From positions 5,022,001 through 5,086,000 of the forward strand of contig NZ_VFMJ01000001.1 of assembly GCF_006715005.1 (NCBI RefSeq): DNA of 64,000 nt, in the 5' to 3' direction. The DNA comes from Serratia marcescens (GTDB lineage Bacteria; Pseudomonadota; Gammaproteobacteria; Enterobacterales; Enterobacteriaceae). A program made the translations under genes and the position numbers. The notes beneath the pieces were generated by a model, which was not told where the DNA came from, did no database searches, and saw only the letters and a list, made by a program, of their open reading frames with translations. Of this stretch, positions 51,598 to 64,000 are shown one piece after another (within the stretch, counting starts at the first letter, position 1; each line of letters begins with the position of its first letter).

Positions 51598-54426
51598 TTA
51601 TTTTTCCAGCAGCGGTTTCAGGAAGCGTGCGGTGTGCGATTTTTCACACTCGGCCACGGTTTCCGGCGTGCCGGCGACCAGGATCTCGCCGCCGCCGCTG
51701 CCGCCTTCCGGCCCCAGATCGACGATCCAGTCGGCGGTCTTGATCACGTCCAGGTTATGCTCGATGACCACGATGGTGTTGCCCTGATCGCGCAACTGGT
51801 GCAGCACCGCCAACAGCTGTTGGATATCGGCGAAGTGCAGACCGGTGGTCGGTTCGTCGAGGATATACAGCGTCTGGCCGGTGCCGCGTTTCGACAGCTC
51901 GCGCGCCAGCTTGACGCGCTGCGCCTCCCCGCCGGAGAGCGTGGTGGCCGACTGGCCGAGGCGGATGTACGACAGGCCGACATCCATCAGGGTCTGCAGC
52001 TTGCGCGCCAGCGCCGGCACCGCGTCGAAGAACTCACGCGCTTCTTCGATGGTCATCTCCAGCACTTCGTGGATGCTTTTGCCCTTGTACTTCACTTCCA
52101 GCGTTTCGCGGTTATAGCGCTTGCCCTTGCACTGGTCGCACGGTACGTAGATGTCCGGCAGGAAGTGCATCTCGACCTTGATCACCCCGTCACCCTGACA
52201 GGCTTCACAGCGCCCACCCTTGACGTTGAAACTGAAGCGGCCCGGCGTATAACCGCGGCTGCGCGATTCCGGCACGCCGGCGAACAGCTCGCGCACCGGG
52301 GTGAAGATGCCGGTGTAGGTGGCCGGGTTGGAGCGTGGCGTACGGCCGATCGGGCTCTGATCGATGTCGATCACCTTGTCGAAATGTTCCAGGCCCGTCA
52401 CTTCGCGGAACGGCGCCGGTTCGGCGATGGTGGCGCCGTTAAGCTGGCGCTGGGCGATCGGGAACAGCGTATCGTTGATCAGCGTCGATTTGCCGGAGCC
52501 GGAAACGCCGGTGATGCAGGTAAACAGACCGACCGGCAGCGTCAGCGTCACGTCCTTCAGGTTGTTGCCGCGCGCGCCGCTCAGCTTCAACACCTTGGTC
52601 GGATCGGCCGGCACGCGCTGCGCGGGGATGGCGATCTCGCGCTTGCCGCTGAGGAACTGGCCGGTCAGCGACTCCGGCTGCGCCATGATGTCGTCGACGG
52701 TGCCTTCCGCCACCACCTGGCCGCCGTGCACGCCGGCGCCGGGGCCAATGTCGATCACGTGGTCGGCGGCGCGGATGGCGTCTTCGTCATGCTCCACCAC
52801 GATTACCGTGTTGCCGAGGTTGCGCAGGTGGATCAGCGTTTCCAGCAGGCGCTCGTTATCGCGCTGGTGCAGGCCGATCGACGGCTCATCCAGCACGTAC
52901 ATCACGCCCACCAGGCCGGCGCCGATCTGGCTGGCCAAACGAATACGCTGCGCTTCGCCGCCGGAGAGCGTCTCCGCCGAACGGGACAGTGACAGGTAAT
53001 TCAGGCCGACGTTCACCAGGAATTTCAGGCGATCGCCGATCTCTTTCAGCACTTTTTCGGCGATCTTGGCGCGTTGGCCGCTGAGCTTCATGTTCTGGAA
53101 GAAGGTCATCGCATGGCCGATGCTCAGATCGGAGATCTCCGGCAGCGTAGTGTCTTCGACGAATACGTTGCGCGCTTCTTCGCGCAGGCGGGTGCCGTGG
53201 CACGAGGCGCAAGGGCGGTTGCTGATGAATTTCGCCAGCTCTTCGCGCACCGCGCTGGATTCGGTCTCTTTGTAGCGGCGCTCCATGTTGTGCAGCACGC
53301 CTTCGAACGGATGGCGGCGCACGGTGGTGTCACCGCGATCGTTGATGTATTTGAATTCGATCGACTCTTTGCCGGAGCCGCTCAGCACCGCCTTCTGTAC
53401 GTCGGCACTCAGGGTGTTGAACGGCGCCTCGACGTCGAACTCATAGTGATCCGCCAGCGAACGCAGCATCTGGAAGTAATAGAAGTTGCGGCGATCCCAG
53501 CCGCGGATCGCGCCGCCGGCCAGCGACAGCTCGGGGTTTTGCACCACGCGATCCGGATCGAAGAACTGCTGCACGCCCAGGCCGTCGCAGGTCGGGCAGG
53601 CGCCGGCCGGGTTGTTGAAGGAAAACAGGCGCGGTTCCAGCTCGCGCATGCTGTAGCCGCAGATCGGGCAGGCGAAGTTGGCGGAGAACAGCAGCTCGTC
53701 CGCTTTTTCGTCGTCCATGTCCGCCACCACCGCGGTGCCGCCGGACAGTTCCAGCGCAGTTTCGAACGATTCGGCCAGGCGTTGCGCCATGTCGTCGCGC
53801 ACCTTGAAGCGATCGACCACCACTTCGATGGTGTGTTTCTTCTGCAGCTCCAGCTTCGGCGGATCGGACAGATCGCACACTTCACCGTCGATGCGCGCGC
53901 GGATATAGCCCTGGGCGGCCAGGTTTTCCAGCGTTTTGGTGTGCTCGCCCTTGCGGTCTTTCACCACCGGCGCCAGCAGCATCAGGCGCTTGCCTTCCGG
54001 CTGGCTCAGCACGTTATCGACCATTTGGCTGACGGTTTGCGCCGCCAGCGGCACATGGTGATCCGGGCAGCGCGGCTCGCCGACGCGGGCGAACAGCAGG
54101 CGCAGGTAGTCGTGGATCTCGGTGATGGTGCCGACCGTGGATCGCGGGTTGTGCGAGGTGGACTTCTGCTCGATGGAGATCGCCGGCGACAGGCCTTCGA
54201 TATGATCGACGTCCGGTTTTTCCATCAGCGACAGGAACTGGCGCGCATAGGCGGAGAGCGATTCGACGTAGCGCCGCTGCCCTTCGGCATACAGCGTATC
54301 GAAAGCCAGCGATGACTTACCGGAACCGGACAGGCCGGTGACGACGATCAGTTTGTCACGCGGGATGATCAGGTTGATGTTTTTCAGATTATGGGTTCGA
54401 GCACCACGAACTTCGATATTGTCCAT
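51598..54426 (-). CDS. uvrA: Excinuclease ABC subunit A
   Basis: 942 residues. The damage-recognition ATPase of nucleotide excision repair. Two ABC modules: Walker [10 protein letters not shown] at about 31-39 and GVSGSGKST near 640; signatures [12 protein letters not shown] and [12 protein letters not shown]; zinc modules CPICGYSM...CPTCDG and CEACQGDGV...[10 protein letters not shown]. Divergent from ssb with a shared SOS box. Confidence 0.98.
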
Positions 54427-54547
54427 TTACACTTCCCGTCTTGATGATACACCGCGCCTGTCGCGATTTTTGCGGGGGATTTTGTGATGGATCTCGCAAA
54501 AAACCGGCACAGCCTGGTCGAAACGCATAATTATGACACAAAAAAAC

Positions 54548-54563
54548 CTGAATGAATATCCAG
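54548..54563. promoter_or_regulatory. LexA (SOS) box between uvrA and ssb
   Basis: CTGAATGAATATCCAG at 54548-54563 fits the CTG-N10-CAG framework and lies in the 277-base divergent gap, as in E. coli where one box serves uvrA and ssb. Confidence 0.85.
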
Positions 54564-54703
54564 TATGCGAATGCAACAAGGTCGATCGAAAAGACAATTC
54601 TGGAATGCAATTCGCACTTATCAACACGGGTGTGGTTTCGCACTCAGCGTGGTAAACTGACGCGTTTATACTGTGTAGAAATCAATCATCGGGAGAAGTG
54701 CTC

Positions 54704-55237
54704 ATGGCCAGCAGAGGCGTAAACAAAGTAATTCTGGTCGGGAATCTGGGTCAGGATCCAGAAGTCCGTTACATGCCGAACGGCGGCGCAGTGGCCAACA
54801 TTACCCTGGCGACCTCCGAAAGCTGGCGTGACAAGGCGACCGGCGAACAGAAAGAGAAGACCGAGTGGCACCGCGTCGTGCTGTTCGGCAAACTGGCCGA
54901 AGTGGCGGGCGAATACCTGCGTAAAGGCTCTCAGGTCTACATCGAAGGCTCCCTGCAGACGCGTAAATGGACCGATCAGTCCGGCGTGGAAAAATACACC
55001 ACCGAAGTGGTGGTTAACGTCGGCGGCACCATGCAGATGCTGGGCGGCCGTCAGGGCGGCGGCGCACCGGCCGGTCAATCTGCCGGCGGCCAGGGCGGTT
55101 GGGGCCAGCCTCAGCAGCCACAGGGCGGCAACCAGTTCAGCGGCGGCCAGCAGCAGTCTCGCCCGGCGCAGAACAGCGCTCCGGCGGCCAGCAGCAACGA
55201 ACCACCAATGGATTTCGACGACGATATTCCGTTCTGA
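54704..55237 (+). CDS. ssb: Single-stranded DNA-binding protein
   Basis: 177 residues. OB-fold domain 1-112 ([20 protein letters not shown]), a Gly/Gln-rich linker (about 113-165) and the acidic tip MDFDDDIPF that recruits replication and repair partners. Start ATG 54704 with GGGAGAAG upstream. Its terminator marks the border of the downstream island. Confidence 0.97.
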
Positions 55238-55277
55238 AGATGACCTTAGAGTTATCTGTAAAGAATGAAAACATAGA

Positions 55278-55301
55278 CCCCTGTTAATTCAGGGGTTTTT
55301 T
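55278..55301 (+). terminator. Terminator of ssb
   Basis: CCCCT-GTTAATTC-AGGGG followed by six T. The low-GC island starts just beyond. Confidence 0.9.
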
Positions 55302-55395
55302 GTTTCTATCGTCGGAAAAAGTGTCTTGTATAAATTGGTGATCTTTCACATAAAGTGTACCTTGTAATTGTGTAATGTTTATGGGGTGTGAGTGC

Positions 55396-55451
55396 ATGGA
55401 AAAGAACTACAGAGTTACAACATTTGTCATGGATAGTGGCGAACGCTATTG
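55396..55451 (+). pseudogene. 5' remnant of a tyrosine recombinase (integrase) gene
   Basis: The frame from ATG 55396 reads MEKNYRVTTFVMDSGERY and is cut at 55451 by the IS-end repeat, after which a stop soon follows. From memory this is the typical opening of the first integrase in three-gene tyrosine-recombinase modules (two integrases plus a coiled-coil protein) that move islands. Only 18 codons remain. Its position as first gene after the island border fits. The identification rests on few residues. Confidence 0.5.
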
Positions 55452-55491
55452 TGGACTGACCCCACCCCGGTAGACGATCTTGCCCTATAGT
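55452..55491 (+). repeat. Extra copy of the IS left end (direct orientation)
   Basis: Forty bases beginning TGGACTGACCCCACCCCGG repeat the first 40 bases of the IS (55492-55531) with a single T/C change at 55481. They sit directly against the IS. The opposite side carries an inverted copy at 56722-56761. Confidence 0.9.
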
Positions 55492-55550
55492 TGGACTGAC
55501 CCCACCCCGGTAGACGATCCTGCCCTATAGTGTGAGCATAGGAGGAGCGT

Positions 55551-55835
55551 ATGGGCACACCACGATTTACACCTGAATTTAAGGAAGAAGCTGTCCGTCA
55601 GATAACGGAACGCGGTTATTCCGTTGCCGAAGTATCTGACCGTTTGGGTGTTTCTGCACACAGCCTCTATAAGTGGCTACGGGCTATCAAACCTGGTAAC
55701 AGCGAACAGCATGCTAGGGATTTACTGGAAGCCAAAAGCGAGATCCTGAAACTACGGGCACAGCTAAAACGTACTGAAGAAGAACGGGATATCCTGAAAA
55801 AGGCCGCGCGGTACTTTGCAAGGGAGCCCGACTGA
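55551..55835 (+). CDS. IS3-family transposase OrfA
   Basis: 94 residues. Helix-turn-helix of the Tnp_1 type (FTPEFKEEAVRQITERGYS, then VSDRLGVSAHSLYKWLRA, about 7-45) and a leucine zipper (about 65-88). It binds the IS ends. GGAGGAGCG is directly upstream. In active relatives a -1 frameshift in the A-rich stretch near 55796-55801 (GAAAAAG) produces the OrfAB transposase. Confidence 0.9.
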   Translation: MGTPRFTPEFKEEAVRQITERGYSVAEVSDRLGVSAHSLYKWLRAIKPGNSEQHARDLLEAKSEILKLRAQLKRTEEERDILKKAARYFAREPD

Positions 55836-56686
55836 AGTACCGCTTTATCAATGAGCACCGCACTGTATGGGGTGTGATGACGATGTGTCGGGTACTGCAT
55901 GTCGCCCGGGCCGGGTTCTACGCGTGGCTGCATAACCCGGTCTCGGCGCGTGATAAAGATAACCAGCGTCTGCTGACGCTTATCCGTGATTCATATTCAC
56001 TGAGCGGAGGCGTATACGGTTACCGGCGGGTTCATGGCGATCTGAACGAAATCGGGGAAACCTGCGGCAAAAACCGGGTGGGCCGTCTTATGCAACTGAA
56101 CTGGATTAAAGCCGTGCGGGGCTATAAAACACCACGGCGTATCGCCGGCCGACCTTCGGTGGTTGCCCCTAATCGCGTACAGCGGCAGTTTACCGTTGTC
56201 CGGGCCAATCAGGTCTGGGTCACCGACATCACTTACATCCGCACCTGGCAGGGCTGGTTGTATCTGGCGGTGGTTATCGACCTCTTCGCCCGTAACGTGG
56301 TGGGCTGGTCGATGAAGCCAACCCTCTCACGCGAACTGGCACTGGATGCGCTGATGATGGCGGTCTGGCGACGTAAACCGGACAGCGAGGTCATCGTGCA
56401 CTCAGACTAGGGTTGCCAGTATGGCAGCGACGACTGGCAACGGTTTTGTCGGGCCAATAACCTGGCACCCAGTATGAGCCGGCGTGGTAACTGTTGGGAT
56501 AATGCAGTGGCCGAATCGTTCTTCAGTTCACTGAAAAAAGAACGCATCAGGAAGAGAATATACAAAACCCGGGATCTGGCCCGGGCGGATATCTTCGATT
56601 ACATTGAAGTGTTCTACAACCGGGCCCGGCGTCACAGTCACCTCGGCGGCGTCAGTCCGGAGGCCTTTGAACGGGCCTCGTCGTGA
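55832..56686 (+). pseudogene. IS3-family transposase OrfB with in-frame amber stop
   Basis: The reading frame, -1 relative to orfA, continues from about 55832 (LKYRFINEHR) through an HTH_21 region and the rve catalytic core. DDE residues: Asp in VTDITYIRT, Asp in VIVHSD and Glu in NCWDNAVAESFF. A TAG at 56408-56410 directly follows HSD, where relatives have Gln (HSDQG). The frame continues intact afterwards as GCQYGSDDWQRF to 56686. A single C to T change explains it. The truncated product lacks the catalytic Glu, so the element is inactive unless amber is suppressed. Confidence 0.9.
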
Positions 56687-56721
56687 GGACAGAATTTGTC
56701 TACGAGCGTCGGGTCAGTCCA

Positions 56722-56761
56722 ACTATAGGGCAGGATCGTCTACCGGGGTGGGGTCAGTCCA
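56722..56761 (-). repeat. Extra copy of the IS left end (inverted orientation)
   Basis: The complement of these forty bases is identical to the first 40 bases of the IS at 55492-55531. With the copy at 55452-55491 it forms an inverted pair around the IS. Confidence 0.9.
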
Positions 56762-57087
56762 AGGCGGCAGAACCATTGGTCGGAAAGTTGCCGTCAAGAC
56801 AGTCCCTCAATGCACATGAGGCAATAGTTACTGCCTATCAAACGAAGAAAGAGGCGCTGAAAGGGCGGGGGCCCAAAAATCCGCGTCCAGCTAGTTTGAA
56901 CATTGCTGCTGCCAGGATTGTGAACCTGGAAAGCGAAGTCGAAGAACTTAGGGAAGAGAACCGGAGGTTCAAACAGCAGTTTGTGATCTGGCAATACAAT
57001 GCATATAAACATGGAATGACAGAACATCAACTTAATGCGCAGTTGACAAAGATTGACCGGGAGCGTTCTGATGGTGAAAAACGATAA
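56762..57087 (+). pseudogene. Coiled-coil third gene of a recombinase module, start lost
   Basis: An open frame emerges from the repeat as AAEPLVGKLPSRQSLNAHEA and stops at 57087, about 108 codons. It contains a heptad-rich coiled coil (ARIVNLESEVEELREENRRF) then QFVIWQYNAYKHGMTEHQLN. From memory this resembles the small protein that accompanies paired tyrosine recombinases (Tn554 TnpC-like/DUF6262-like). No start codon of its own is present before the coiled coil, although a frame starting inside the IS end could be translated. The RT operon starts 51 bases later. Confidence 0.6.
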
Positions 57088-57099
57088 TAATCTCGGTAG

Positions 57100-57132
57100 T
57101 ATAATTTTTCGTAATATTATTTATAAAGGAGA
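57100..57132 (+). promoter_or_regulatory. Likely -10 element and ribosome site for the RT operon
   Basis: TATAAT at 57100-57105 is a consensus -10, though no good -35 sits 17 bases upstream. AAAGGAG at 57126-57132 is a strong ribosome site 6 bases before ATG 57139 and decides the start of the first RT gene. Confidence 0.5.
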
Positions 57133-57138
57133 TTGAAA

Positions 57139-58488
57139 ATGATTGACCAGTCTTTTTCAGCGAGGAATTTTAGAAGGATATACGACCTAGATAGGAAAAA
57201 TAAAGGTACTTTAGAAGTTGAACACTTTCCTGACGCTTATAAGATCGGGAAGAAAATAACAATGTTAAAAGGTTTTATTTATTGGCTCGCAAGAAGACTG
57301 AGAAGTGGTCAGATTAGCACGGCTAAATTTGAAGAAAAGAAAGATAAAGTTAATGAGCATATTAAGCTTAGAAAAGAACAATATAATAATGAAGTGAATA
57401 GCAAGTTGAAAATTATTGCACAGAATGTCGGTATAAAAGGGTACGCGTTACCTTTGACGTTATTGCCACATCAAGTGAAGAATAAAAATGTATATTCAAT
57501 TGGGAATTCAGTTGAAGCATTATTTGTGTCTAGGCAAATAAAATTTATTTTAAGTTCGTTATACACAATAAAATCAAATAATAGGGATCTGATTATCAGT
57601 CGCCTAAGCGCCTTGGCTAAGGAAATGAGTCCAAAGTATATAATCAGGGCCGATGTTGAAAGTTTTTATGAATCTATAAACCATAAGTCTTTATTAGATA
57701 TGTTGCATTCATCACCTAAGTTATCTGTTCCGCCACGTCGGGTGATTACTCAGTTAATTAGGAAATATCAGGCTTTAACTGGGCTAGATAAAGGGGTGCC
57801 TCGTGGTGTAGGCATAAGTTCTTATTTATCTGAGCTGTATATGAGTGTTGTAGATGATAAAATAAGGGCCTTACCAGATGTTACTTATTATGAACGGTTT
57901 GTAGATGATTTGATAGTGATCTTTTCACCAGATAAAGGAGGGAATACTTGTAGCTATCTCCCCAAAATTACTAGCATTATAAATGACCGTGCCTTGTGCC
58001 TTAATAATAAAACAAAAGAACTGGATTTATTTACACAATCTAATAAAAGTTTTGAATATCTAGGCTACAAATTTCAGCTAACAGCTAGAGACTGTAGTAT
58101 AAAGATGAGTTCAAATAAAGTTCAAAAAATTAGAAGTCGAATTGATAAAACATTTTATGAATATAATCAGAGTGTTAGTAAAACACCAAAGAGAGCGGCA
58201 AAAAATATTTTGCTTAGAATGAAATTTCTTACCGGAAACACTCGTCTTTATAATAGTAAATCAAAAGCCTTTGTTGGGATATATTTTAGTAATCGATTCA
58301 TAACTGATTTATCTGATTTAAATGGATTGGATTCTTATTTGGCGAATAAAATAGATGGTTTGCAAGATCAGAAACTTAAAAAGAGAATTAGTAAGTTTTC
58401 CTTTAGTAAAGGTTTTGAAGATAAAATTTTTAGGAAATTTAGTTTCATAGAATTTAGCGATATATCTAAGGGATGGTCACATGTCTAA
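57139..58488 (+). CDS. drt3a: Reverse transcriptase, Drt3a-like (defence-associated RT type 3)
   Basis: 449 residues from ATG 57139; an in-frame TTG two codons earlier is not favoured by the AAAGGAG site. RT motifs are intact: motif A IRADVESFYESI (about 169-180, Asp172-equivalent first catalytic Asp), motif B GVPRGVGISSYLSELYM (219-235), motif C RFVDDLIVIF (253-262) and motif D/E with LGYKF (308-312). The N-terminus (SFSARNFRRIYD) and the overall plan match my memory of Drt3a (UG3 group). No maturase, integrase or nuclease domain is seen. Its last 8 bases overlap the second RT. In DRT3 the two RTs and an RNA defend against phage. Confidence 0.85.
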   Translation: MIDQSFSARNFRRIYDLDRKNKGTLEVEHFPDAYKIGKKITMLKGFIYWLARRLRSGQISTAKFEEKKDKVNEHIKLRKEQYNNEVNSKLKIIAQNVGIKGYALPLTLLPHQVKNKNVYSIGNSVEALFVSRQIKFILSSLYTIKSNNRDLIISRLSALAKEMSPKYIIRADVESFYESINHKSLLDMLHSSPKLSVPPRRVITQLIRKYQALTGLDKGVPRGVGISSYLSELYMSVVDDKIRALPDVTYYERFVDDLIVIFSPDKGGNTCSYLPKITSIINDRALCLNNKTKELDLFTQSNKSFEYLGYKFQLTARDCSIKMSSNKVQKIRSRIDKTFYEYNQSVSKTPKRAAKNILLRMKFLTGNTRLYNSKSKAFVGIYFSNRFITDLSDLNGLDSYLANKIDGLQDQKLKKRISKFSFSKGFEDKIFRKFSFIEFSDISKGWSHV

Positions 58489-60523
58489 AAAAGCGTTATC
58501 GATAAATTTCCCAATAGAACGAGTAGTTCTTTCCGATTTTTTACCATATGAAGTTCCTATTATTTTTTCAAATAGACATTTTTACAAGTTTATTGTTAAG
58601 CATCAAATAAAACATGATGGGTTGAATTTCATATGGCTAAAGAGAGATGACTGTTTAAATAGTTTAATTCTACTTTTATTGGGTCTTGAACAGAACACGG
58701 AAACAGTTGAAATAGTTGATAAGGGTATTAGTTATACTAAAACAAATATCAAGTATGCTAAACTGCCTAGCATTGCTTTTACTTTTCCAATTTCGCATAA
58801 ACATAAAGAATACAGATACTTGTCTCTAATTCATCCTAAAGGACAGCTATTGGGCGTTGATTTCTATAGGAATTATAAAGATTTAATAACATACTATTCA
58901 AATGTTAGCCCATTTAGCCTCAGATCAGCAAAAAGGATCGCTGGTTGTACTTACATCGATTCAAAATCTCTAATTGAAAGTTTTGAGAAAGAAGATTTAA
59001 GTATTGAGGTTGAAGGTCAGGATTATGAAAATTTAAAATCTTTTTTTGTTTATAAGAAATATCGTAATATTTTTGAATTTTATGAATCTGAAGATCATCA
59101 TTGGTGTGAAAAGCGTTTTAATTTTCTCTCTAAATTAGATGTGTCGAACTGTTTTGATTCAATTTACACCCATTCAATTTCATGGGCTGTTTTGCAAAAA
59201 AATTATTCAAAACAACAGTTAAATAAGACACAGTCGACATTCCCATTTAAATTTGATCAATTGATGCAGAGGTCGAACTACAACGAAACAAATGGAATAA
59301 TAATTGGGCCGGAATTATCCAGGATTTTTGCAGAGATAATAATGCAGTCAGTGGATAACAATATCATCAATGATCTTAATAAAGACGGTTTAGTTCTTGG
59401 TGGGGATTACCAAGTATATCGCTATGTCGATGACTATTTCATTTTTTATAATGACGATGATGTATTCAATAAAATTAGAATAAGCACACAGAAAAATCTA
59501 AAAACCTTCAAGCTAAGTTTGAATAAATATAAAGAAGAGAGGTTTTCGCGTCCAATAATAACGCCAATAACTATAGCCAAGAAAAAAATAGCGAATTTGA
59601 TATCGGAAAGAATATCTTATAACATTACTGACAATGGCTCTCTAGAAGAAGATATTAAGAAAGGGAATGTCTACATACATCAAAATAGTTTATCTACCGA
59701 CTTTAAATCGATACTTTCTGTATCAGGGATAACATATTCGGATATCTTAAACTATTCATTGTCTATTATTGAAAGGAAAATCAAGACACTTTTTAAAGAT
59801 TATAAAGAGTTTTCAAAAGATGAAAGTGGCGAGCGTCAACTAATTAATGCTATTGTATCTGTGGTGAATTTCACATATTTTATATATGCAGTTGCTCCTA
59901 AAGTGAATAGCACTATAAAATTATGCAGGATAATTCAGCAAGTAATTATGTTTGTTAAAGATCAAAAAATAGGCGAAGAATATCAACATATTGTATTCAA
60001 ATGTGTATTCGATAATTCATGTTCTATTTTAGATAAATACTCCATTGATAAAACAACACCGATCGAAACTTTGTATTTGTTAGTGCTGGTTAGGCAGCTT
60101 GGTAAATATTATTGGTTAGGTGAAAAAAGCTTGATGAAGTATTTCAATATTAGCTTTGAAGGTGGTGTATACTCATTTGATGATAATTTGAATTACTTCT
60201 CCATTACTTCTCTAATGTTTTATATGAGTGACAAAAAAAGATATGATGGGGTCAGGAAGCATCTTTTGCTTCATATTGAAAATATTTATAGCATGAAAGT
60301 TGATACTCTTCTAAATGAGTCTGAATTGGTTCACTTAACGTTGGATCTAATTGCTTGCCCATACATACCTGTTTCTTTTAAAAAAGCTCTGCTTTCTCGT
60401 TATGGTATTGAAAAATCGTATGTGAAACGAATTATTTCATTAAATGAATATTGGTTTACAAAATGGAATGACTTTGATTTTGCGAAGGAGCTGGACGCGA
60501 AACTTAGCAACGCTGTATACTGA
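58481..60523 (+). CDS. drt3b: Reverse transcriptase, Drt3b-like (second RT of the pair)
   Basis: 680 residues, starting within the end of drt3a (8-base overlap), so translation is coupled. A 200-residue N-terminal region lacking known motifs (VVLSDFLPYEVPIIFSNRHF) precedes the RT core: motif A SKLDVSNCFDSIYTHS (217-232), motif B NGIIIGPELSRIFAEI (271-286) and motif C YRYVDDYFIFYND (313-325). The catalytic Asp pair is intact. The C-terminal 330 residues are helical without a recognisable domain. It corresponds to the UG8 RT found with UG3 in DRT type 3. As I recall, recent work on DRT3 reports that this RT makes the AC-repeat strand without a nucleic-acid template. Confidence 0.82.
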   Translation: MSKKALSINFPIERVVLSDFLPYEVPIIFSNRHFYKFIVKHQIKHDGLNFIWLKRDDCLNSLILLLLGLEQNTETVEIVDKGISYTKTNIKYAKLPSIAFTFPISHKHKEYRYLSLIHPKGQLLGVDFYRNYKDLITYYSNVSPFSLRSAKRIAGCTYIDSKSLIESFEKEDLSIEVEGQDYENLKSFFVYKKYRNIFEFYESEDHHWCEKRFNFLSKLDVSNCFDSIYTHSISWAVLQKNYSKQQLNKTQSTFPFKFDQLMQRSNYNETNGIIIGPELSRIFAEIIMQSVDNNIINDLNKDGLVLGGDYQVYRYVDDYFIFYNDDDVFNKIRISTQKNLKTFKLSLNKYKEERFSRPIITPITIAKKKIANLISERISYNITDNGSLEEDIKKGNVYIHQNSLSTDFKSILSVSGITYSDILNYSLSIIERKIKTLFKDYKEFSKDESGERQLINAIVSVVNFTYFIYAVAPKVNSTIKLCRIIQQVIMFVKDQKIGEEYQHIVFKCVFDNSCSILDKYSIDKTTPIETLYLLVLVRQLGKYYWLGEKSLMKYFNISFEGGVYSFDDNLNYFSITSLMFYMSDKKRYDGVRKHLLLHIENIYSMKVDTLLNESELVHLTLDLIACPYIPVSFKKALLSRYGIEKSYVKRIISLNEYWFTKWNDFDFAKELDAKLSNAVY

Positions 60524-60715
60524 GAGGAAGCGCATCAGGCACCCTTAATGGCTGTTGGCAGCCGCACACACCAGCGCTAACGGGTATGATTGCCCTATGC
60601 ATGGGAGTTATACTTGGCGAGATCCGCCTGAGTCTTTCCGTTGAGATAACCCCCTACTACACAGCTTTTGGCCTATGTGGTAGGGGGTTGTTGAGACTAA
60701 AGTAGTATAGATACA
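60524..60715 (+). ncRNA. Candidate DRT3 non-coding RNA with ACACAC template
   Basis: The sequence just after drt3b has no gene but is packed with hairpins and is richer in GC than the flanks. Hairpins: GGCTG-TTGG-CAGCC (60550-60563); GTAT...CCC-TATGCAT-GGG...ATAC (60584-60613); GGCG-AGATC-CGCC (60616-60628); and a 17-base stem AACCCCCTACTACACAG with CTATGTGGTAGGGGGTT (60648-60689, one GU, one mismatch). Single-stranded ACACAC (60566-60571) follows the first hairpin, within GCACACACCAGCGC. DRT3 systems are described with an RNA, and an AC repeat is what a template for poly(GT) synthesis would need. The ends are not defined; no T-rich terminator follows. Confidence 0.65.
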
Positions 60716-60763
60716 AGGGCGTCAAAGACTAGCCTGACAGTTATCCTAAATACTTAATATAAA

Positions 60764-60976
60764 TTAATCGGTGTGCAGTAACTTTGCACGGCGTTCTTGC
60801 ATTTTTTCGCCATGGTTCTTTCTTTTATTACCACAAAGATAACAAGAACATGCACAATGTGACTGATAGATTTTACCTATAGTAATTGATGTTTTAGTTA
60901 CTGCAATACGATAAAATCTTCTCTTCGATTTCAAACGAAAGGCATGCTGTCGTCGCCAAGACCTATCTCTAACCAT
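60764..60976 (-). CDS. Small basic protein with CxCxxC-GN motif
   Basis: 70 residues, very basic. It starts MVRDRSWRRQHAFRLKSKRR and carries HCACSCYLCGNKRKNHGEKM, a compact Cys cluster likely to bind zinc, then QERRAKLL. I recall short proteins of this pattern (RDRSWRR...CSCxxCGNxRK) scattered across proteobacterial chromosomes and islands; function unknown. A GGAG lies about 10 bases before the start. It runs toward the RNA segment from the opposite strand. Whether it belongs to the RT system or is a passenger cannot be told. Confidence 0.65.
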   Translation of the reverse strand: MVRDRSWRRQHAFRLKSKRRFYRIAVTKTSITIGKIYQSHCACSCYLCGNKRKNHGEKMQERRAKLLHTD

Positions 60977-61250
60977 ATAAATTTACTCCACTTTTCTAAC
61001 GCGGCATTATACCGCGTCCGTATCAGCACATGGAGTCCAACATCAATCTGTTTATTCACTTTTACACCATCATTTAACCTAGTTCTGCTTATAGTATCAA
61101 TTTCTATTAACTATCTGAACTATATATGGTCTTATACACTTATCTTAAAATTGTGTAGAGTTTTATTTCGTAATATCTCCTACTATTGTTAGCATAAAGC
61201 ATGAGGATTATGCTCGTGCTTTATACTAACTTTCAATACCGATTCTTTAT
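60977..61250. other. AT-rich island sequence without a gene
   Basis: 273 bases. Short open frames in it show no conserved pattern. A possible promoter of the small Cys protein lies at its left edge. Confidence 0.5.
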
Positions 61251-61644
61251 TTAGAAATCTTCTATCAACTCTGAGATTCTTTCTTGGAAATACATTGGAT
61301 ATTTTTCTATCACCTTCATTGCATTACCTCGATTATTTTTCAACTCTTTCACGAGATACTTCTTCTGAGTCGCCGCTAGCTTCAAGGATGTGGCGAGATC
61401 CTGAGCTATTACGCGATCTGAAAAACCAAGCTCATATAGGGAAATAGCGGTGTCTGTTGGAAGACCATATTTTAGTTTTTTGGAAAAGCTGCAGACGATT
61501 GCACAGATCCCTTGTGCCATCCCTATTAAGAGTTTCGATGAACTCAGATATTGCACCTACAACGAGCGTTGCATTATATGCAAGCGCCCCTTCGCAGATA
61601 TCCACATTCTTAGATTCTATAGGCTTTTTTGAATAGGTTAGCAT
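61251..61644 (-). pseudogene. Frameshifted C-terminal fragment, helicase-like tail
   Basis: Two overlapping minus-strand frames read as one protein if one base is removed in the run TTTTCCAAAAAA near 61475-61487. The first part is KAMLTYSKKPIESKNVDICE followed by GALAYNATLVVGAISEFIE; the second is LPTDTAISLYELGFSDRVIA, then ATQKKYLVKELKNN and YPMYFQERISELI. Upstream the frame is open only about 13 codons before a stop, so the start is lost. From memory the second part resembles the C-terminus of large DEAD/DEAH-type helicases of defence islands. That assignment is uncertain; the frameshift itself is clear. Confidence 0.6.
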
Positions 61645-61875
61645 AGCCTTTGACGCTAACTCATTACTCTTAGTGCTACTGAGTCAGAAAACCGCGGTTA
61701 AGAAGTAAGTTTCATCAATAGGCAAGGAATGTAAAATTTTTAGTCGTCATAAAGAGTATCTTTAACTAAAAGCATTACATAACTATTACTTTTTAATTTA
61801 ACTTATTGAAATTAATGTTTTTTATTTATAATCAGGTAAACAGAACCGTTCTAAGCCTGGCGACAGCGCTAAAAA

Positions 61876-61900
61876 AACCCCGCTCAGGCGGGGTTTTTTG
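61876..61900. terminator. Bidirectional terminator at the island's right border
   Basis: AACCCCGC-TCAG-GCGGGGTT is flanked by A7 and T6. It can end the cyclase gene on the minus strand and anything from the island. Confidence 0.92.
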
Positions 61901-61939
61901 TGGGCGCTCGCTGCCGATTTTCTGTGGTGGTGTCGCCAA

Positions 61940-62896
61940 TCAGTAAATTGCTACCGGGTTGATGTTGACCTGCGTTGAACCGACATACAGCGGTTGCCCC
62001 AGCACGAACAGGAATTCCCAGGTTTTCGTGTGCACCAGCGGGCGGCTGTCGATCAGCTCCAGGTTATAGACGCCGCGCTTGGCCAGCAGGTATTGGTTGA
62101 CCGGGAACTCTTCGTCATTTTTCGGGTTAGGGTACACTTCGGAAGCCCAGGTATCACCGCCAAAGGCTACGATGCCTTGGTCAGCCAACCACTTCGCCGC
62201 TTCCATGCCGATACCCGGTTCGATCTCCAGGAATTTTTTATTGTCCTTACCAATCAGCTCCAGCCAACCGGTATTAAATAAAACAACGTCGCCTTTTCTT
62301 AAGCTAATGCCCTGCTTCTTAAGCACCGCTTGAATATCCGCAACGGAAAATTCAGTGCCGCCCGGAACGATGTCTTTATGATAATAAGCCGTCATATCGA
62401 GCACCACGCCGCGGGTGACCATGGGCGGCACTTTTTCCACGCCCAGTTTCTTCACGCCATCAACGGTGACAAAGTCCGCCGCCTTATTGCCGTTATAATA
62501 AACGTTGTCGATGCCGATATGGCCTATACCGTTCAACTGGGTGCCGACGCCGGTCCAGGCATTCACCAATTCATCATTGAAGGTGAATTTATTGGGGCCA
62601 AGCGTTTTTCCGTCCTGCTGACCAGGCTGAATATTATATAAACGGAAGCTACGGTGGCGGAACGCCGGGAAATCTTTATCGACGGGAACGGCCAATGACA
62701 ATGTCTTGCCTTGCTTTACCAACTGCACGGACTGTAATACCCCTTCCGGCGTAAGCAGGTTGGCGGCGCCGATTTCGTCTTTTGCACCGTAAACAGAAGG
62801 ATACCAGTCTGACGGCTGAGCGGCGGACTCTGCGGCGTGTGCAGGCACTGTGGCAAGCAAAGGCAGCAGGAGGGAGAGGCGATACAATGATTTCAT
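61940..62896 (-). CDS. Cyclase-family (kynurenine formamidase-like) exported protein
   Basis: 318 residues with a signal peptide (about 1-21, ending TVPAHA), so periplasmic. The fold family is PF04199-type cyclase/formamidase: GTQLNGIGHIGIDN replaces the usual HxGTHxDxPxH metal motif, as in one branch of the family. Later blocks KGDVVLFNTGWLELIG and FGGDTWASEVYP are typical. The substrate is unknown and the missing first His may change metal binding. Start at 62896 with GGATGAG upstream; 36 extra codons upstream are not supported. Confidence 0.82.
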   Translation of the reverse strand: MKSLYRLSLLLPLLATVPAHAAESAAQPSDWYPSVYGAKDEIGAANLLTPEGVLQSVQLVKQGKTLSLAVPVDKDFPAFRHRSFRLYNIQPGQQDGKTLGPNKFTFNDELVNAWTGVGTQLNGIGHIGIDNVYYNGNKAADFVTVDGVKKLGVEKVPPMVTRGVVLDMTAYYHKDIVPGGTEFSVADIQAVLKKQGISLRKGDVVLFNTGWLELIGKDNKKFLEIEPGIGMEAAKWLADQGIVAFGGDTWASEVYPNPKNDEEFPVNQYLLAKRGVYNLELIDSRPLVHTKTWEFLFVLGQPLYVGSTQVNINPVAIY

Positions 62897-63117
62897 CAGT
62901 GACTCATCCTTATAACGACGTATTGCAAGGTGAATGAAAATGAGCCATCCGGACATAGGCGATGTCAGGCCGCCGAATAATAACCGGTGGAGAAAGAGGC
63001 TCATTTTTTAGTACGCGGGTGCATTAGCGTGATGCTTTATAAAGCGTGGTGAATAACCACCCGACGATGACTTCCTTATGCGGAAATAAATAACGCCGGT
63101 GAGCGGCGTTATTGGCA

Positions 63118-63330
63118 TTATTTTTTAAGCTCTGCACTCATGGTGACGAAATTGCCCATGTAGGCGCTGGTGATTTTATAGCCACTTGCGCCGGCCTCTT
63201 GCGCTTTTTTAGCGATGAGGGCTTCGGTGGAATCCAGCGTTCTGCCGGTTGCGGTAACGCTTTCTGCTGCGGCGTTAAACGACAACATGGAGAACAGAGC
63301 GAGTGAAATAACGGTGGTCATGGTTTTCAT
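63118..63330 (-). CDS. DUF1471 (YdgH/BhsA/McbA-like) periplasmic protein
   Basis: 70 residues. Signal peptide about 1-22 (SFNAAAE), then a DUF1471 domain: EALIAKKAQEAGASGYKITS and AYMGNFVTMSAELKK. The family is stress-responsive and affects biofilm or surface properties in enterobacteria. A single gene with its own promoter region (63331-63593, about 260 bases, AT-rich). Confidence 0.88.
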   Translation of the reverse strand: MKTMTTVISLALFSMLSFNAAAESVTATGRTLDSTEALIAKKAQEAGASGYKITSAYMGNFVTMSAELKK

Positions 63331-63570
63331 ATCTTTATCCTGTGTTCGACGATTCGAAAAATGAGGGTGTCCGGTACGACACGATGGAGCGAAGGATAAA
63401 GGGGGCGATGAGGTGAATAAATAACAGAATCGTCAATAAACTATTCCGTTTTTGTACATAAACTGATTCGATTGTTGTTTTTCAAGCGGTGTTGGTGGTG
63501 TATAGCGGGGGGTGGCGAACGGGTATGTATCGACCTTCAGGCTTACACATTGCGCAGCTGAATAAATAAA

Positions 63571-63590
63571 AAGCCCCTTGCGGGGCTTGG
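63571..63590 (-). terminator. Terminator of the SDR gene
   Basis: AGCCCC-TTG-CGGGGCT with A5 on the left, which gives a U tract on the minus strand, 6 bases beyond the SDR stop. Confidence 0.85.
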
Positions 63591-63593
63591 ACG

Positions 63594-64000
63594 TTACGCC
63601 GAGAAGCCGCCGTCGATGCTCAGGCTGGCGCCGGTGATATAACCCGCCTGCGGGCCGGCCAGGTAGGCGACGAAGCCGGCGATCTCTTCATCTTTGCCGT
63701 AGCGGCCGATCGCCATCAGCTGCTTGAGCTGATCGGCGAATTCGCCGGCGTCCGGGTTCATTTCGGTGTCCACCGGGCCGGGCTGCACGTTATTGACGGT
63801 GATGCCGCGCGGGCCGAGATCGCGCGCCATGCCTTTGGTCAGGCCGACCAGCGCCGATTTGCTCATTGCATACACCGCCGCGCCGCCGAACGGCACGCGC
63901 TCGGCGTTGGTGCTGCCGATGTGGATGATGCGGCCGCCGTCGTTCATGTGGCGCGCCGCTTCCTGGCTGGCGACGAACACGCTGCGCACGTTGACCGCCA
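63594..64000 (-). CDS. Short-chain dehydrogenase/reductase, 3' part (partial)
   Basis: The frame runs off the window; about 135 C-terminal residues are present. Catalytic SDR residues are visible: Ser in IHIGSTNAERV and YxxxK in AVYAMSKSAL. PGPVDTEMN and the C-terminal YITGASLSIDGGFSA follow. It reads VNVRSVFVAS before the first internal start, so the gene extends outside. Substrate unknown. Confidence 0.9.
   Translation of the reverse strand, partial: AVNVRSVFVASQEAARHMNDGGRIIHIGSTNAERVPFGGAAVYAMSKSALVGLTKGMARDLGPRGITVNNVQPGPVDTEMNPDAGEFADQLKQLMAIGRYGKDEEIAGFVAYLAGPQAGYITGASLSIDGGFSA

Follow-up and report, generated by a model that had tools for sequence, protein, structure and literature searches.

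The question raised by this locus is what system is encoded by two overlapping reverse transcriptase (RT) genes, and the RNA segment that follows them, in a 64,000-nucleotide stretch of the Serratia marcescens contig NZ_VFMJ01000001.1 (the whole stretch is called the window below, and its coordinates are used throughout unless another locus is named). A first-pass annotation had matched the two genes to the UG3+UG8 pair of a type 3 defence-associated reverse transcriptase (DRT3) system. The upstream gene, drt3a (57139-58488, plus strand, with AAGGAG upstream), encodes a putative RNA-templated RT of 449 amino acids with the longer N-terminus typical of its clade, and drt3b (58481-60523, plus strand) encodes a putative protein-primed, protein-templated RT of 680 amino acids, carrying E24, R112, R281, YVDD at residues 315-318 and the terminal Y680. 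The genes overlap by 8 bases, the list of open reading frames shows internal stops in neither, and all elements of a complete RT core were located in both products, as the first-pass annotation had stated: the motif-A aspartate (D172 in Drt3a, D220 in Drt3b), motif B, and FVDD in Drt3a or YVDD in Drt3b. That annotation had proposed a search against Drt3a and Drt3b profiles, and its assignment was confirmed by the result: Drt3a scored 361.5 bits with NCBIfam NF041747 (curated equivalog cut-off 200) and Drt3b 704.1 bits with NF041748 (curated equivalog cut-off 350), in agreement with the PADLOC models (4.7e-109 and 3.1e-194, respectively). DRT3 is a kind of system that is already known, and the window holds a complete copy of it, the RNA of which is built differently from that of the system studied so far.

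The same searches bear on whether the proteins might be RTs of a group II intron, a retron or a diversity-generating retroelement (DGR) rather than a defence pair. The models for group II introns and retrons did give matches, but weak ones that stayed far below the cut-offs (group II intron: 68.1 bits for Drt3a and 40.5 bits for Drt3b, cut-off 300; retron: 42 bits for Drt3a, cut-off 235), and a Pfam scan found RVT_1 as the sole family in each protein. Furthermore, an Rfam scan of 54000-64000 gave no family at the gathering score, intron and retron RNAs included, and no direct repeat of at least 25 bases, which a DGR requires, was present in 56700-61900, farther repeats not having been sought. 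These identities, for which the first-pass annotation had likewise seen no features, were rejected on these grounds and are extremely improbable.

Functional residues of Drt3b were counted off an alignment to PDB chains 26cz and 9z6y. We took 26cz to be the SUMO-tagged Drt3b of the Escherichia coli system of Wang et al. (EcoDRT3), and 9z6y and 9z6z to be entries of the E. coli DRT3 of Deng et al. (Science 2026). Residues E22 and R241, together with R71, are named by Wang et al. as setting the base in EcoDRT3; E22, R71 and R241 correspond to E24, R112 and R281 of the window, and alignments of the locus proteins place the EcoDRT3 priming tyrosine, Y666, at Y680, the last residue of Drt3b. Conservation was followed in 113 full-length Drt3b sequences, drawn from 131 loci with a Drt3b match (window included; loci are numbered with L) after leaving out six truncated ones (L018, L049, L117, L125, L127 and L129), ten whose best match was below 100 bits, and L001 and L002 (the window). 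R112, D220, F225, R281, D317 and D318 were invariant in all 113. The position of E24 was occupied by glutamate in 109 sequences and by aspartate in four (L003, L022, L119 and L124), and these four fit the pattern, since the E22D variant of EcoDRT3 is reported to retain partial activity (Wang et al., PMC13174585). Tyrosine was found at the Y680 position in 110 of the 113. In the E. coli locus L017 (5317-7356), the C-terminus of Drt3b is unlike that of its near relative L026 and the priming tyrosine is missing at the aligned place; from its sequence, this Drt3b is possibly a natural loss of function. Two neighbours of L017 are annotated as ogr/Delta-like and polarity suppression genes, as are typical of P4-like satellites.

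The first-pass annotation had further pointed to a structured RNA behind the genes, and such an RNA was indeed found directly after the drt3b stop. The noncoding RNA (ncRNA; 60524-60638, plus strand) contains four conserved helices, defined by covariation: the closing helix 1 (60529-60533/60574-60578), helix 2 (60550-60554/60559-60563), helix 3 (60584-60595/60603-60613) and helix 4 (60617-60625/60630-60638), all on the plus strand. A CACACAC template (60565-60571, plus strand) lies past helix 2 and ahead of the 3' strand of the closing helix. The ncRNA is followed by a long GC-rich hairpin (60645-60692, plus strand), possibly the 3' end or a terminator; it was not among the terminators listed by the terminator scan. 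The segment 60524-60693 folds with z = -3.85, and one of 200 shuffled sequences folded as well. In an alignment of 16 sequences, 94.9% of the pair cells held standard pairs and 20 of the 28 pairs showed double changes; none of 500 shuffles matched either the paired fraction or the number of double changes, and shifting the partners by one to three columns dropped pairing to 36-43%. With 56 distinct ncRNA rows, 93.1% of the cells were paired and 26 of the 28 pairs had double changes, though the fitting of this alignment to the structure biases it in that direction.

An RNA model (R2) was built on the 16 related sequences with the covarying structure; an automatic RNAalifold structure (R1) lacked helix 1, and this model was dropped and used in no search. 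R2 was run on 98 sources, leaving out the other 15 training loci together with certain loci that were partial, weak or near-duplicates. It recovered 60 of the 77 loci of the window's clade (a count that includes 7 hits to the window or to near-copies of training rows), always on the plus strand and just 3' of drt3b, and gave a single match in the whole genome that holds the window. On whether the window ncRNA has the shape published for EcoDRT3, which as far as we saw does not belong to the definition of DRT3, the signs are mixed: R2 missed all 18 E. coli-type loci, yet single-sequence folds of 18 such loci often showed a hairpin just before the template within a closing helix, as in the window. 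The CCTATG of L112, which resembles helix 3 but lies upstream of the template, prompted the idea that the ncRNAs of one clade are circular permutations of those of the other; it was dropped because CCTATG occurs in only 2 of the 18 E. coli-type loci.

As to the template itself, ACACAC or CACACA was present within 250 nt past the drt3b stop in 110 of the 113 loci. By comparison, 20 shuffled sets gave a mean of 11.6 and a maximum of 17, and 400-base windows taken at random from these loci a mean of 13.6 of 113. Neither word was found in L027, L128 and L130, which form a separate, distant lineage in the Drt3b tree. The RNA template and the protein "template" (glutamate or aspartate, and arginine) occur together in 110 of the 113 loci, which fits selection for a duplex rather than for a single strand. 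Downstream of drt3b in L065 and L066 (Gilliamella and Candidatus Schmidhempelia), CACACA was seen without ACACAC, and R2 found no match there.

What such a duplex might do is described in the work on EcoDRT3 (Wang et al., PMC13174585). There, poly(dTdG) is made by Drt3a on the RNA template and poly(dCdA) by Drt3b, which starts from its C-terminal tyrosine and whose side chains dictate the base; the strands anneal into a duplex that RecBCD removes until a phage inhibitor such as Gam intervenes, whereupon growth stops. EcoDRT3 is reported to be toxic in laboratory strains that are recB or recC null. GreA is needed for defence, and RecC and GreA are tied to DRT3 function (same source); both are encoded in the window genome. 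By analogy, Drt3a of the window would bind the ncRNA transcribed from just after drt3b and repeatedly copy its ACACAC loop into poly(dTdG), and Drt3b would be primed from Y680 and add dC and dA alternately, the base being picked by E24 and R281, to yield poly(dCdA). The two strands would anneal, and RecBCD would hold the duplex low in uninfected cells; a phage block of RecBCD, as by lambda Gam, would then let it accumulate and lead to growth arrest and abortive infection.

Several observations weigh against this reading. The proteins of E. coli-type systems are about 30% identical to those of the window (Drt3b 32% in both L017 and L026; Drt3a 29 and 31%), and it is from such systems that the two products, their annealing, the control by RecBCD and the phenotype would carry over. 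The shape of the E. coli-type ncRNA appears to differ, since R2 matched none of the 18 E. coli-type loci and none of the three loci of the third lineage. Moreover, one covariation measure, the number of further pair types, was matched in 13 of 500 shuffles, the window RNA taken alone has a lowest-energy fold in which the 5' end pairs otherwise than in the covarying helix 1, and a promoter scan gave no match above chance. Nevertheless, the genes, their motifs, the template, the RNA fold, the conservation and the purifying selection (see below) were observed directly, and we consider it very probable that an intact anti-phage system of the DRT3 kind is encoded here and works by the published mechanism.

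The differences from the E. coli systems follow a split that is seen in both protein trees. In the Drt3b tree (113 rows) the window falls into a group of 90 rows (node value 99) opposite another of 20 rows (node value 95), and the Drt3a tree (100 rows) gives the same split, 82 versus 18, at a node value of 100; both trees were quick ones made without bootstrap, and several long branches were flagged. The genome scan covered the best 80 of 432 relatives, ranked by likeness to a query whose first row was the window, so the clade sizes are no guide to abundance. The template starts 24-77 nt past the stop in the window clade (130 nt in L107, which lies inside that clade) and 91-221 nt past it in the other. 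The Drt3b insertion shows in the stretch between window residues 44 and 97, which holds 42-71 residues in 89 of the 90 members of the window clade, 29 residues in the remaining one, L094, and 15-39 residues in the 20 members of the other clade. The median number of Drt3a residues before motif A is 166 in the window clade as compared with 111-114 residues in the other (14 of the 19 listed rows, those with the motif pattern); an alternative median of 112.5 came from a list that also held seven truncated or other-lineage rows, including the window-type L018.

EcoDRT3 (Drt3a 398 amino acids, Drt3b 667 amino acids; Wang et al. 2026, PMC13174585) shares with the window the gene order, the two RT cores, a cis RNA downstream of drt3b that carries an ACACAC template, and the equivalents of E22, R71, R241 and Y666. 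Its two protein lengths are those of the E. coli locus L026, from which we place the studied system in the other clade and through which the differences were measured: the template of L026 lies 128 nt past the stop as against 41 nt in the window, its Drt3a has 112 residues before motif A whereas L018, nearly a copy of the window, has 169, Drt3b of L026 is devoid of most of the insertion after residue 44, and L026-type RNA was not matched by the model of the window clade. For the E. coli DRT3 of Deng et al. (Drt3a 426 amino acids, Drt3b 650 amino acids), E26 and R253, named in PMC13213688, align with E24 and R281 of the window, and in the PDB alignments its Drt3a is about 50 residues shorter at the N-terminus and its Drt3b insertion is largely missing. 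The RNA model of Wang et al. was built on EcoDRT3 and its closest subgroup, with 32 unique RNA hits (PMC13174585). A second class of DRT3 ncRNA is not described in the main-text portions of PMC13174585, PMC13314766 and PMC13213688, though it may be in print elsewhere.

These findings led us to propose, tentatively, that the window represents a second DRT3 subtype with a minimal RNA core and extra protein segments that may replace RNA contacts. The core may consist of the closing helix, one hairpin and the template straight after the drt3b stop, with the two conserved 3' hairpins lying outside it. The separate clade in both trees, the clade-specific ncRNA, the Drt3b insertion and the longer Drt3a N-terminus would also be expected if the window clade used DRT3 chemistry with another trigger or another ribonucleoprotein architecture, so that the RecBCD/Gam model did not carry over to it; as the residues for base choice and priming are all kept, and the template too, we regard this as rather unlikely.

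A further question is how the system came to lie in this genome and whether it still works there. The RT genes are AT-rich (GC 0.319 for drt3a and 0.303 for drt3b; 0.557 for the RNA) in comparison with the window outside the island (0.611), and their acquisition, already suspected in the first-pass annotation, is further supported by the island borders and by empty sites in congeners. The acquired island spans 55229-61852 (6.6 kb; no strand assigned) and is flanked by a 7-bp direct repeat, CCGTTCT, whose left copy (55229-55235, plus strand) lies inside the 3' end of ssb (open reading frame 54698-55237) and whose right copy is at 61846-61852 (plus strand). Among 30 genomes of the genus, the window's own included, the downstream flank was matched at full length in three others; in all three of these congeners (G022, G003 and G004) the site is empty, window base 55235 being joined directly to 61846. 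The same element sits between ssb and yjcB in E. coli L015 and L016, and in L014 another cluster lies between ssb and the element. RefSeq E. coli drt3a/drt3b loci beside yjcB (e.g. NZ_CP125731.1) are also the same element, with 98.5% DNA identity over 3661 bases. The ssb-yjcB site is "integration hotspot 39", an E. coli defence island with Detocs and dGTPase (PMC11728103); this is the chromosomal site of L015 and L016 with other cargo, and "DRT" has no occurrence in the main text of that paper.

In the E. coli copies, three recombinase-type genes are followed by a small gene, drt3a, drt3b and the RNA; the recombinase-type label is that of RefSeq, and Pfam Phage_integrase was above its cut-off only in the first of the three, which may together form a "gamma-mobile-trio". 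A Hachiman pair follows the RNA in L014, L015 and L019, is in pieces in L018, and is absent from L016. E. coli L014 and L015 keep the three recombinase-type genes and the full Hachiman pair, both of which are lost in the window. The place of the recombinase genes of L014 and L015 is occupied by an IS3-like insertion sequence (55452-56761, plus strand), the ends of which were set where likeness to the E. coli copies breaks; it scored 66 bits with HTH_Tnp_1 and 58.9 bits with an IS3 transposase model, the latter below the cut-off of 160, and further full and partial copies occur elsewhere in the window genome. The recombinase genes may have been lost as this insertion sequence moved in. Of the small fourth gene a remnant is left (56758-57087, plus strand; residues 33-141 of 141, 97% identical to the L015 gene), and of the Hachiman helicase gene, hamB, a scar (61249-61605, minus strand; residues 934-1051 of 1051, in two frames). 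The statement of the first-pass annotation that no effector adjoins the RTs holds for the window, but E. coli copies such as L014 and L015 have Hachiman beside them, of which this scar is what is left.

Such erosion might mean that DRT3 is genetically intact but silent or non-working in this host, for instance because its promoter went with the recombinase genes, and that it persists only owing to the recent arrival of the island. The element has indeed lost its upstream part, the insertion sequence ends 377 bases before drt3a, no promoter match rose above chance, and the nearest E. coli copies show 98.5% identity, from which the time since transfer was probably short. On the other hand, the two reading frames are intact, as is the RNA, the ncRNA and the following hairpin are identical in the printed sequences of the window and L014, and the ratio of nonsynonymous to synonymous substitution rates (dN/dS) between these two is 0.19 for drt3a and 0.10 for drt3b, albeit on few differences. 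Against six relatives, dN/dS was 0.08-0.19 for both genes. We therefore consider a silent system quite improbable. To judge by these ratios, the DRT3 unit is kept under purifying selection while its neighbours, the recombinase genes and Hachiman, have been lost or disrupted, so that the element is eroded and probably immobile, with the DRT3 unit retained.

As to its spread, 22 of 5426 E. coli genomes matched the element, nine of them holding at least 80% of the 3661-base query, and the six best listed were 98.4-98.5% identical. The same element is present on an E. coli IncY plasmid (L018, 6001-8044), with drt3b annotated in two pieces, and this plasmid is a possible vehicle for transfer between genera. 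Close pairs, with 93-96% identical Drt3b, were found in Yersinia vastinensis (L028), an uncultured Enterobacteriaceae (L029) and Pluralibacter gergoviae (L030). In the search of relatives, Drt3b was above the cut-off in two of 99 genomes, the window's own and G069. The third DRT3-like lineage comprises L027 (2587-6040, a Pediococcus plasmid) and the viral-collection contigs L128 (3443-6806) and L130 (3402-6983); both partners match PADLOC Drt3a and Drt3b but stay under the NCBIfam cut-offs, and neither ACACAC nor CACACA occurs within 400 nt 3' of drt3b. In L027, drt3a and drt3b are divergent, with ACACAC between them on the drt3a strand. A query with this lineage (A6) against viral contigs gave seven loci, none of them a new full-length member as judged from the query residues matched. 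A Lactiplantibacillus plasmid (L168, 2551-6004) carries two divergent "RNA-directed DNA polymerase" genes like those of L027, and a gene of Erysipelothrix phage SE-1 annotated as "DNA binding protein" (L167, 3965-5863) matches Drt3b with 24.7% identity over 70% of the query; from their sequences, both are probable further members.

For the biology of this family, Drt3b is a striking case in which protein side chains, and not a nucleic-acid strand, would set the sequence of DNA. In the island of the window, a defence pair has outlived the mobile element to which it belonged. As the window proteins are about 30% identical to the studied ones and yet the locus retains the residues that choose the base, the tyrosine for priming and the matching RNA template, the window serves as a natural test of which parts are essential, and the clade-level difference in the build of RNA and protein deserves a direct test. 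If the window does represent a second subtype, the published 6:6:6 complex would be one of at least two builds that make the same poly(TG/CA) DNA.

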